From Rickettsiales bacterium (lineage in GTDB: Bacteria > Pseudomonadota > Alphaproteobacteria > Rickettsiales > UBA3002), in NCBI GenBank assembly GCA_028281385.1, contig JANQJY010000114.1, positions 1-43,004 of the forward strand: 43,004 bases of DNA. Reading direction: 5' to 3'. The notes beneath the pieces are model-generated. The model ran no database searches. It saw only the letters and a program-made list of their open reading frames with translations, and was not told where the DNA came from. Positions 4,142 through 28,860 of this stretch are shown one piece after another (positions within the stretch are counted from its first letter, which is position 1; each line of letters starts with the position of its first letter). Position numbers and translations under genes: made by a program.

Positions 4142-4435
4142 TCAATCCGGATAGTGATAATCAAACAGTTCAGGATCGCTGAACTTCTTCGCACCTTCGG
4201 CTTCGCCTTTGAAACGCTGGTGCATGGCGGAGGCAATATATTGCGCCGTCGCGTGATGCCGCCACAGCACCTGCTCCAGCCGTGCGAAGGAGGCGAGATC
4301 GGCTTCCGTCGGCTGGTAGCGCTTGTCCCGCTTATACTTATACGCTATTTCCACTGCCTGATACACCAGGCCGATGGCTTCCTCCAGCGGCGGTTTCGAT
4401 TTCTTTTTAAACAGTCTCATTGTCAATAATTGCAT
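4142..4435 (-). CDS. hypothetical protein, 97 aa
   Basis: I do not recognise the family. The protein is short, basic at the N-terminus (MRLFKKKSKPP) and otherwise helical, with aromatic residues (VYQAVEIAYKYKRDKRYQPTE, LEQVLWRHHATAQYIASAM). It has no signal peptide or membrane segment. I chose ATG 4435 because AAAGGG stands eight bases upstream; an ATG at 4486 would require translating through a hairpin. That hairpin (4447-4467) overlaps the ribosome binding site, and a chain of further hairpins continues upstream to 4690, so a structured leader may control this gene. It is convergent with the J-domain gene, 24 bp away. Confidence 0.6.
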   Translation of the reverse strand: MQLLTMRLFKKKSKPPLEEAIGLVYQAVEIAYKYKRDKRYQPTEADLASFARLEQVLWRHHATAQYIASAMHQRFKGEAEGAKKFSDPELFDYHYPD

Positions 4436-4446
4436 GGTCTGCACCC

Positions 4447-4690
4447 TTTCATTCGGTTGAAATGAAAACGGCACCAATGCCTTCACACGGGTGCCGGGGT
4501 GTTAAGAAGTCACATAAACATGACCGCGACGCCTTTACCGCGAGCGGCTGTTGTATAACGCCGCCACCCCGACGCATAAGCGTGAGGTGGCAGTTTGGTA
4601 ACGGCAGTGCCACTGCCGGTTTATGAGAGGTTCTTAAGCCCCAGGATGCCCTACATCGGACATCCTGCGCCCAGCATAGCCGCAAGCGGG
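4447..4690 (-). ncRNA. candidate structured leader RNA (chain of perfect hairpins)
   Basis: At least five perfect stems occur in a row: 4447-4453/4461-4467, 4469-4475/4490-4496, 4563-4568/4586-4591 with an inner 4572-4575/4580-4583, 4602-4608/4612-4618, and 4642-4648/4661-4667, plus CCGC/GCGG at 4680-4689. The strand is chosen because the 97-aa gene lies immediately downstream on the minus strand and the last hairpin covers its Shine-Dalgarno sequence. An open minus-strand frame (4449-4685) also crosses it, but I doubt it is a protein. I cannot assign an Rfam family. A similar region occurs at 26104-26449. Confidence 0.45.
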
Positions 4691-21649: not shown

Positions 21650-21693
21650 GTCTGTGGTGTAGGGGATATGGAGCATAACTGCAACGTCTTATT

Positions 21694-21794
21694 CGTCATT
21701 GCGAGACATGCGTGAGCATGGCGAAGCAATCCACACCTTGCTATATGACATCACCTGGATTGCCGCGTCGGCCTACGGCCTCCTCGCAATGACG
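21694..21794. repeat. palindromic repeat element, 101 bp
   Basis: It begins CGTCATTGCGAG and ends CTCGCAATGACG, with internal halves GGCGAAGCAATCCA and TGGATTGCCGCGTCG. It is the type copy of the element family and lies between the divergent esterase and polA. Confidence 0.8.
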
Positions 21795-24868: not shown

Positions 24869-26017
24869 ATGACAGAGTACGGCACAGATACTCCCACAGC
24901 AAAGGTAGATAGCGTACAACACCCCAGGCAGGCGATGGAAGAACGTTTGGCGCAGCTGCGCGAAGGCAACCGTTTGGGTATGCATATGTGGGAGAGCCGA
25001 CATTACGTGAACGAGAAGCTCAAGCCCTATGATTTTCCTGACTATAGCCATTATCTATGCACGCATCTGTCGGCCGATCAAATAGAAGATAAGCTTATTC
25101 ATTACCGTTCTCCACCCAATCCAAACCAAAATCAGTATGACCCTTCACGGACTTATTTCGTGTCGGCTTCGCTGATTCCTTGCGATAACCCAAAAAGTGG
25201 AGCCCTCTGTTCTGTTCCCCCCTATAGCATGTATGATGAGATGTATCCGCAGGTTGGCTATTTACTCAATTTCAGCCAGCCCGGTGAAGCATTAGCGCCA
25301 AAACATTCAGCAAAGATTTTACGTGTAAACGAGACAGTTTTGAGCAGTGGGTATGGATGGCAAGAAAAAAATCTTCGTCTGCCGGGCCCAAAACCAGACC
25401 TATGGAAGTCATCTATCGATGGATTAGACGAGAGCTATGGCAAATTCTCTCAACAAGAGTTCATTCAAATAATTGGCCGTGACGCAAAGGGAAAGCTTTC
25501 AAAACAACAATTGAATTCACTGGGAAATGCCTATCAGAACCACAAATTCAACCTGGAGTTCAGCATACATACAAACGAAGTGGTCTGCGCCATGTCCGAA
25601 GAACATATCGAAGCGATTGTCGTGTCGGTCTATGATATAAAAGACCCTGAAAAACAAACACTGGAGGATGCTTACGCCAACGCCATCGGCGCCCTGGGCG
25701 GATTGCAGCATTTAAGGGCAGGTATGGATTTGCCGGTGGTGCGCTATCAGGTTAATGAAGCCCAGCCACCTGACCCTGATATGCCGCGCAAGGGCGAATG
25801 CCGTTATATGGCGCAGGGAAAAATGGAATGCAAACAGATGTTGATTGGCGCCATGGCCACCCTGTCAAACCACAAAGATTATTTAGGTACACACCCAGTC
25901 CCCGCCTCCTATGAGCATTTATGCCAAGCCGCCGCCGAAGCGTTAGGTATGGAACGGGAAACATTGGACGGTCAGATTGCCGAACGAATGGCTGAACGGC
26001 AACGCGGCAGAGTATAA
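24869..26017 (+). CDS. hypothetical protein, 382 aa
   Basis: I do not recognise the family. It lacks a signal peptide and membrane segments. It is rich in Tyr, Pro, His and Gln (ESRHYVNEKLKPYDFPDYSH, SLIPCDNPKSGALCSVPPY), with a mixed alpha/beta look in the C-terminal half (EHIEAIVVSVYDIKDPEKQT, AIGALGGLQHLRAGM). Seven cysteines are dispersed; no metal motif is obvious. The composition is more AT-rich than its neighbours, which may mean recent acquisition. The promoter contains a Pho-box-like site, so expression under phosphate limitation is plausible. There is no Shine-Dalgarno sequence. It is followed by the structured region at 26104-26449. Confidence 0.7.
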   Translation: MTEYGTDTPTAKVDSVQHPRQAMEERLAQLREGNRLGMHMWESRHYVNEKLKPYDFPDYSHYLCTHLSADQIEDKLIHYRSPPNPNQNQYDPSRTYFVSASLIPCDNPKSGALCSVPPYSMYDEMYPQVGYLLNFSQPGEALAPKHSAKILRVNETVLSSGYGWQEKNLRLPGPKPDLWKSSIDGLDESYGKFSQQEFIQIIGRDAKGKLSKQQLNSLGNAYQNHKFNLEFSIHTNEVVCAMSEEHIEAIVVSVYDIKDPEKQTLEDAYANAIGALGGLQHLRAGMDLPVVRYQVNEAQPPDPDMPRKGECRYMAQGKMECKQMLIGAMATLSNHKDYLGTHPVPASYEHLCQAAAEALGMERETLDGQIAERMAERQRGRV

Positions 26018-26103
26018 AGCCGTCACAGACATCTTTTTGAACGCTTTAATACTCCATCCTGTTCCAAAATACTCCTTGGAATGGCATCTGTTATCCGCTA
26101 TCC

Positions 26104-26449
26104 TGCATGCAGATCGGCGTGATGGCCGATTCTGGGGCTACAAAACCCCAAACCCGACAGCGGCTGGCATCAGCCGTGATTGGTGCATCTTCTCCAAGCA
26201 TGCACCAAAGATGTCGCTTTCCGACCTTAGGGCCGGGAGGCGGCACTGTATGTCCAAGCCTTGGACGCTTGCGTCTCGCGGCCAAAGAGTGTCGCGCGTG
26301 TCTCTGTTGGGTTCACGTTTTGTACTCCCGGCTACCAGTCGTATGATTGGTAGCGCCTATCCTATGCCGGGAGGGGACGTGAATAAAAGACTCACTGTGA
26401 GAAACAGCGTCCCGAACGTAACAAATAAGCCAGGACCTCCCGGCGCCAG
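26104..26449 (+). ncRNA. candidate structured RNA, about 345 nt
   Basis: Perfect stems in order: 26113-26118/26125-26130, 26133-26137/26146-26150, 26161-26166/26171-26176, 26181-26188/26200-26207, 26213-26216/26222-26225, 26252-26256/26262-26266, 26325-26332/26366-26373 enclosing 26333-26337/26348-26352, and 26374-26379/26408-26413. A long-range helix CCGGGAGG (26233-26240) with CCTCCCGG (26436-26443) closes the second half. A plus-strand frame (25977-26555) runs through it; its translation vaguely recalls phage Ash/Icd-like proteins, whose genes overlap antisense RNAs, but I cannot confirm this. It is neither an RNase P RNA, SRP RNA nor tmRNA that I can recognise. Confidence 0.5.
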
Positions 26450-26612
26450 AGTTCAGAGTTCAGTCGTCAGTAACTGTCATCGCGAGGAAATGTCGTTAGA
26501 CATTGACGCGGCGAGTCCAAGCGGCATATCCGCATGGATTGCTTCGCCGTGCTAACGCACGTCTCGCAATGACGATCACTGAACTCCGAACCCTGAACTC
26601 CGATCACTGATG
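26449..26612. repeat. inverted repeat copy A: palindromic element with heptamer arms
   Basis: The core 26475-26574 is the CGTCATTGCGAG family in reverse orientation, flanked by gttcaga-type and aactccg-type heptamer arms. It is nearly identical, as reverse complement, to copy B at 28682-28860. The two enclose the NMO and irr genes. Confidence 0.8.
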
Positions 26613-28683: not shown

Positions 28684-28860
28684 ATCGGAGTTCGGAGTTC
28701 AGAGTCCGGAGTTCAGTGATCGTCATTGCGAGACGTGCATTAGCACGGCGAAGCAATCCATGCGGATATGCCGCTTGGATCGCCGCGTCGATGTCTGACG
28801 ACATCTCCTCGCGATGACAAACACACTGAACTCCGGACTCTGAACTCCGAACTCTGACCA
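28682..28860. repeat. inverted repeat copy B: palindromic element with heptamer arms
   Basis: The core 28721-28819 starts CGTCATTGCGAGACGTGC and ends CTCGCGATGACA. Both arms are built from gttcgga/aactccg heptamers. It lies between the irr stop and the SH3-protein stop, which is exactly at its edge. Confidence 0.8.

Follow-up and report, generated by a model that had tools for sequence, protein, structure and literature searches.

The C4 RNA of phage P1, in work credited to Citron and Schuster (1990), reportedly represses translation of icd-ant. A second RNA of interest here, sRNA-Xcc1 (Rfam RF02221), comes from Xanthomonas, where it is a discrete 88-nt RNA by Northern analysis and RACE, according to Jiang et al. 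2010 (PMC2996969). Other studies describe seven transcribed homologs in Xylella (PMC12189769) and sRNA-Xcc1 located upstream of symE in integron cassettes of Xanthomonas (PMC12444791). Those portions of the three papers that deal with sRNA-Xcc1 treat it as a trans-acting small RNA with no known mechanism (PMC2996969, PMC12189769, PMC12444791), and the table of the Xylella paper, the one paper among those searched that names both RNAs, annotates both sRNA-Xcc1 and C4 antisense RNA with no link between them (PMC12189769). In satellite phage P4, the CI RNA is described as acting by antisense-dependent termination, in which a processed leader RNA pairs with an upstream and a downstream site, seqA and seqC (PMC4825925).

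Here, we analyzed a 43,004-nt stretch of contig JANQJY010000114.1 from a Rickettsiales bacterium, hereafter the window, which harbors at 26104 to 26449 of its plus strand what is very probably a cis-encoded two-segment antisense leader RNA that has the architecture of P1 C4 and is homologous to sRNA-Xcc1.

Folding of the Region and the Overlapping Reading Frame

The plus strand of 26104 to 26449 folds with −151.4 kcal/mol, compared to −119.9 (SD 6.0) for dinucleotide shuffles (z = −5.28; 0 of 100 shuffles as good), and the minus strand folds less well (z = −3.30). An earlier note, made from the letters, had called the folding far above chance and the region RNA-like. Both calls were borne out, as the helices covary in relatives and covariance analysis of homologous regions gave strong covariation. 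The extent that it proposed, 26104 to 26449, was about right at the 3′ end (26444) and required revision at the 5′ end, where the element starts earlier, with a promoter-like −10 at 26099 to 26104.

A frame at 25977 to 26555, open for 192 codons, runs through the region, and its translation had been thought to recall Ash/Icd-like phage proteins. That the frame encodes such a protein, with the folding incidental, is highly improbable. Frameshifting indels break it in 10 of 10 relatives, with stops in most, and the mismatches in these ten relatives are spread evenly over its codon positions; the codon-level conservation that the earlier note had named as evidence against an RNA was looked for in them and is absent. 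The translated frame matched neither Ash/Icd nor any other family in Pfam, PHROG, or NCBIfam.

Parts of the Window Copy

From 5′ to 3′, leaders of this family comprise a promoter-like site, hairpin H1, hairpin H2 (bearing target segment b), target segment a, hairpin H3, the core, antisense segment b′, a 3′ hairpin that is often an intrinsic terminator, a ribosome-binding site, and a gene. In the window copy, all of whose parts lie on the plus strand, a putative sigma-70-like promoter is located at 26076 to 26104, with a −35 TTGGAA (26076 to 26081), a 17-nt spacer, and a −10 TATCCT (26099 to 26104). A strict promoter scan detected no promoter; we make the call because the position is conserved: most of 52 relatives have the −10 at 25 to 33 nt before H2, with a weak consensus. 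H1 (26112 to 26132), read from the sequence, is a variable hairpin that is present in relatives with a differing sequence. H2 (GGGGCTACAAAACCCC, 26134 to 26149), likewise read from the sequence, carries b (TACAAAAC, 26139 to 26146) in its loop, and a (AACCCGACAG) follows at 26151 to 26160. The loop of H3 (26160 to 26176), GGCATC at 26166 to 26171, pairs with GATGTC at 26210 to 26215 in a pseudoknot backed by covariation. Between H3 and this pseudoknot partner is an optional hairpin (GGTGCATC..GCATGCACC, 26182 to 26206), which only some relatives have.

The core of the family, of ∼85 nt, consists of a closing stem P1, the hairpin P2–P3, hairpin H5 with antisense segment a′ in its loop, and b′ abutting the 3′ strand of P1. 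The corresponding sRNA-Xcc1-like unit 1 of the window copy spans 26232 to 26332 and scores 77.7 bits (E = 6.9e-17) with R1, a covariance model of the core that we built from 38 relatives. Covariation supports its P1 (26232 to 26239 with 26325 to 26332). P2 (26240 to 26247 with 26288 to 26295) forms with P3 the hairpin 1 side of the core, H5 occupies 26297 to 26317, a′ (CTGTTGGGTT) lies at 26304 to 26313, and b′ (GTTTTGTA) is at 26317 to 26324, directly 5′ of the P1 3′ strand. The code of this copy, TACAAAAC with GTTTTGTA and AACCCGACAG with CTGTTGGGTT, comprises 18 pairs in two blocks, including one G-U in the a–a′ block.

A hairpin at 26330 to 26354 (GGCTACCAGTC..GATTGGTAGC) corresponds to the intrinsic terminator of gene-bearing relatives and here has no T-tract. 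It is followed by unit 2 (26366 to 26444), a second, degenerate sRNA-Xcc1-like core in which 26366 to 26374 is able to pair with 26436 to 26444 as P1. The two closing stems replace a single long-range CCGGGAGG/CCTCCCGG helix (26233 to 26443) that had been proposed for the region. Both copies of CCGGGAGG and both complements are indeed present, as had been claimed; their partners had been wrongly assigned.

The window copy is a tandem without an ORF that has kept its code. The same arrangement, a hairpin with no T-tract followed by a second degenerate core and no gene, is found throughout the subgroup to which it belongs (L016, L002, L003, L006, and L007), whose members are 78 to 91% identical. 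Unit 2 looks degenerate, and in sister copies it matches RF02221 with 35.8 and 34.7 bits. A search of the genome for trans-targets of unit 2 returned only its own copies and one hit with three mismatches, within the control rate. Judged from sequence, the window copy would be a relic or an RNA gene that stands by itself. Because unit 1 retains an intact 18-pair code, the copy may still work as a free-standing RNA or may have done so until recently, and the guess of a remnant in the earlier note holds in the limited sense that there is no downstream gene and no T-tract behind the 3′ hairpin. A palindromic REP/MITE-like repeat lies right after the element (26464 to 26610) and recurs at 28684 to 28857 and 21693 to 21733, with further copies on contigs C86 and C57.

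Size and Spread of the Family

A DNA search revealed six further copies of the region in its own genome, with 71 to 91% identity; of 90 genomes, the own one included, 14 hold relatives. In many relatives, the element is a leader of ∼200 to 230 nt that ends just 5′ of the start codon of a gene. An Rfam search of the window at Rfam's own cut-offs reported nothing, in keeping with the statement in the earlier note that the region matches no standard RNA. This holds at the cut-offs only. RF02221 matched 12 of 19 relatives, the best (L032) with 52 bits against a gathering score of 53, and relatives of the window subtype score 27 to 52 bits. The window copy falls below the gathering score, with unit 2 found at 23 bits (26366 to 26452, at a loose threshold) and unit 1 not listed. 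Across the phylum, RF02221 matched in 51 of 299 genomes. The ten matches in the own genome include one above the cut-off, the paralog on contig C107 with 53.3 bits.

R1 found 25 matches in the own genome; more widely, it matched 53 of 131 genomes in the order and 35 of 289 in the class. The named relatives of the subtype belong mostly to Micavibrio and other alphaproteobacterial assemblies, with others in Hyphomicrobium, Bradyrhizobium, Variovorax, and Legionellales, which suggests a Micavibrio-like host for the window. A search for phage and plasmid DNA similar to the window copy gave no match. The region is a member of a leader-RNA family of ∼25 copies in this bacterium. A second member is found in the window itself, at 4485 to 4573 on the minus strand (RF02221, 50 bits; R1, 49.5 bits), with its own b/b′ and a/a′. 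The gene behind it (∼4145 to 4474, minus strand) encodes a ∼97-aa protein, relatives of which recur in other families, behind the leaders of L028, L231, L233, L234, L247, and L248.

Covariation and Private Pairing Codes

In 38 cores, 98.0% of 871 cells are paired, and both partners have changed in 18 of 23 pairs. The covariation score of the core is 0.478, compared to 0.190 when shuffled (0 of 500 shuffles as high) and 0.04 to 0.11 when the alignment is slid. For 54 leaders, the b–b′ pairing was 96% compared to 71% in shuffles, with 91 double-change cells against a shuffle maximum of 34; a–a′ was 81% paired compared to 49%, with 145 double-change cells against 67; and the H3 loop pairing was 85% compared to 78%, with 41 against 26, all of these shuffle tests being inflated by kinship among the sequences. 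With slid scores this low and an effect this large, chance is an improbable source of the covariation.

To compare copies, we used a two-segment ungapped complementarity score, in which each target is scored against its own and foreign antisense segments. Own a′/b′ segments outscored foreign ones among viral sRNA-Xcc1 loci (n = 78), window-type leaders (n = 40), RF02221 matches in genomes (n = 33), and ten own-genome copies, and the advantage was reached in 0 of 10,000 permutations in each of the four sets. When 24 own-genome copies were compared, the own pair won outright in 21 and shared first place in 2 others; within the pilin-type subgroup, it was strictly best in 13 of 13. RNAduplex energies were rejected as a measure of crosstalk, as shared G+C-rich flanks make them misleading. 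Two copies are hybrids: L074 (own genome, C118:32813–33014) joins a pilin-type leader to a window-type 3′ half, and in L234 (unit at G059:C20:35349) the target and antisense segments are mismatched to each other. These hybrids suggest recombination between copies.

The copy number of ∼25, the 78 to 91% identity of the tandem subgroup, the hybrid L074, and the palindromic repeat adjoining at 26464 to 26610 would all suit a mobile REP/MITE-like repeat, whose hairpins serve DNA mobility and are not expressed as RNA. Such a repeat would not, however, account for compensatory changes that keep RNA pairing between segments other than terminal repeats and tolerate G-U pairs, nor for the conserved promoter position and downstream start codons, and we consider this reading very unlikely.

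Phage Relatives with Two Target Sites

The classic sRNA-Xcc1 core pattern was present in 95 IMG/VR contigs, and BLAST located the core in 37 phage records, for example, Rac-SA53, Vibrio anguillarum phages, Aaphi23, and Moraxella phages. In the phage sRNA-Xcc1 loci, the gene that follows has a second copy of b–a at its ribosome-binding site (0 of 10,000 permutations), and this second target is also significant in the RF02221 set (0 of 10,000 permutations). In close relatives, b, b′, and the second b are altered together, for example between L152 and L162, where a is unchanged (b, b′, and site-2 b are GTCGAAAC, TTTCGAA, and TTCGAAAAAA in L152 and CTCAAAAC, TTTTGAG, and CTCAAAAAAA in L162). Of 60 phage loci, 39 have a terminator-like hairpin separating target 1 from the core, compared to 0 to 5 in shuffles; these terminators have 5-pair stems and are missed by a search requiring at least 6 pairs. 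All ten genes tested behind phage loci belong to antirepressor families (AntA, ORF6N, Rha, Bro-N, KilA-N, and P22_AR_N). The phage loci run from target site 1 through a terminator and the RNA to target site 2, at the ribosome-binding site, and then to the antirepressor gene. One phage leader, L139, contains two tandem sRNA-Xcc1 cores (1183 to 1266 and 1432 to 1515), which may be compared with the Xylella array of five.

The Window Subtype and Its Downstream Genes

In the window subtype, a target at the ribosome-binding site was not significant, with 3,302 of 10,000 permutations reaching the observed value, and the same was seen for 24 own-genome copies (1,044 of 5,000). One half of the C4 mechanism is, therefore, absent from this subtype. 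A stem with a T-tract, that is, an intrinsic terminator, is found 3′ of the core in 38 of 62 relatives, compared to 1 to 3 in shuffles.

Among the genes behind window-type leaders are some for GIY-YIG or Mrr-like nucleases, for an RTX-repeat protein, and, as judged by eye from N termini, for lipoproteins and small membrane proteins. Elsewhere in the order, the leader is repeatedly followed by a gene for an uncharacterized protein of ∼95 aa. In the own genome, at least 8 leaders precede type IV pilin-like genes, of which there are 38. The subgroup L219 to L230, which has orthogonal codes, is distributed over contigs C78, C16, C46, C37, C115, C108, C10, C98, C21, C65, and C114, with at least 8 leaders before paralogous pilin-like genes and two in tandem on C46. 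PADLOC matched 5 of 47 genes behind leaders strongly (UzuA in three cases, PD-T4-3, and ZorA). However, control ORFs of the same loci are also defense-rich, and no enrichment in defense functions of the genes behind leaders over their neighbors was evident. Genes matching defense models are located directly behind the window-type leaders L011, L019, L080, L030, and L120 and neighbors.

Proposed Mechanism and Implications

Sequence comparison establishes the element with its spread, covariation, private codes, and the layout that it shares with P1 C4. From these data we infer transcription of the window copy, its processing, its silencing activity, and the division between pairing within and between molecules, and the anatomy of the family leaders suggests that they would repress. 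Transcription starting at the promoter near 26104 would yield an RNA with b in a hairpin loop, followed by a and, farther on, by the core presenting a′ and b′. The processed core RNA may bind the b–a target of newly made leaders, or the core may fold back on its target, and either pairing would lower expression of whatever lies downstream. In phage members, transcription would terminate after target site 1, and pairing at target site 2 would block the ribosome-binding site. For the window subtype, pairing would set readthrough against the terminator that abuts the closing stem of the core.

Intramolecular and intermolecular pairing leave the same covariation, and a cis-only attenuator or riboswitch, in which a/b and a′/b′ form a pseudoknot and the terminator is set by the fold, or by a ligand, with no free antisense RNA, would fit the window subtype, where the terminator abuts P1 in 38 of 62 relatives, the ribosome-binding site has no target, and H3 has a pseudoknot of its own. 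In phage relatives, however, the same a′/b′ also fits the second site at the ribosome-binding site, which suits an RNA acting on several sites; sRNA-Xcc1 has been detected as a discrete 88-nt RNA (PMC2996969); and the pairing segments vary freely among copies, where a ligand pocket would be conserved. We, therefore, regard the cis-only reading as possible but rather unlikely.

If the two-segment antisense reading is right, sRNA-Xcc1, found in phages and across Proteobacteria and discussed as a virulence small RNA with no known mode of action, gains a likely mechanism, as it has the parts of a C4-type antirepressor silencer. The phage device also exists on chromosomes, where a genome may hold many copies, each with a private pairing code; this renders natural antisense orthogonality directly testable and offers ready-made orthogonal regulators. 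More speculatively, and with a rather low probability, a phage immunity RNA may have been domesticated in Micavibrio-like bacteria as ∼25 orthogonal silencer leaders, at least 8 of them controlling paralogous pilin-like surface genes. In that case, every pilin-like paralog could be switched or dosed on its own.

Comparison with Known RNA Systems

The window copy has the secondary structure of sRNA-Xcc1, with closing stem, hairpin 1, hairpin 2, and single strand, and the cores are homologous, sharing the closing stem, hairpin 1, and 3′ segment. The window subtype differs from sRNA-Xcc1 in adding the H3 pseudoknot domain and a terminator immediately behind the core, and from the phage sRNA-Xcc1 loci in having no site at the ribosome-binding site.

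With C4, the window copy has in common two short antisense segments that match a two-part target in the upstream leader. The suggestion in the earlier note of a C4-like antisense RNA was correct as to architecture and found no counterpart in the C4 model (RF01695), which at E ≤ 1 matched nothing in the own genome and also failed to match the relatives and the sRNA-Xcc1 loci. The c4-2 model also had no own-genome match, a weak negative, as c4-2 matched in no control. The C4 and sRNA-Xcc1 covariance models do not cross-match, and their antisense segments correspond by topology only; Rfam places C4 and c4-a1b1 (RF03163) in one clan (CL00128) and sRNA-Xcc1 in none. The genes of the window type are not antirepressors, in contrast to the icd-ant operon of C4, and the window copy has no gene.

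P1/P7 C4 shows the same succession of promoter, two-part target, and RNA, with the same core topology. In the P1 record, our positive control, the order is a1, b1, C4 RNA, a2, b2, icd, as in the phage sRNA-Xcc1 loci, and the second two-part target and antirepressor gene are common to P1 and the phage relatives. After target 1, the P1 leader reads TGCGGTATTTTTGTGTCC, with the shared wording GCGGTATTTTTGTG, nearly letter for letter as in many sRNA-Xcc1 leaders. P4 CI RNA and Gifsy-1 IsrK resemble this system by description, as processed leader RNAs with paired sites and early termination (PMC4825925). The Rfam isrK model matches phage P1 (L218) at 48230 to 48311 with 35 bits (cut-off 50), over the a1–b1 target and terminator; isrK thus resembles the half of a C4-type locus that gives the terminated leader.
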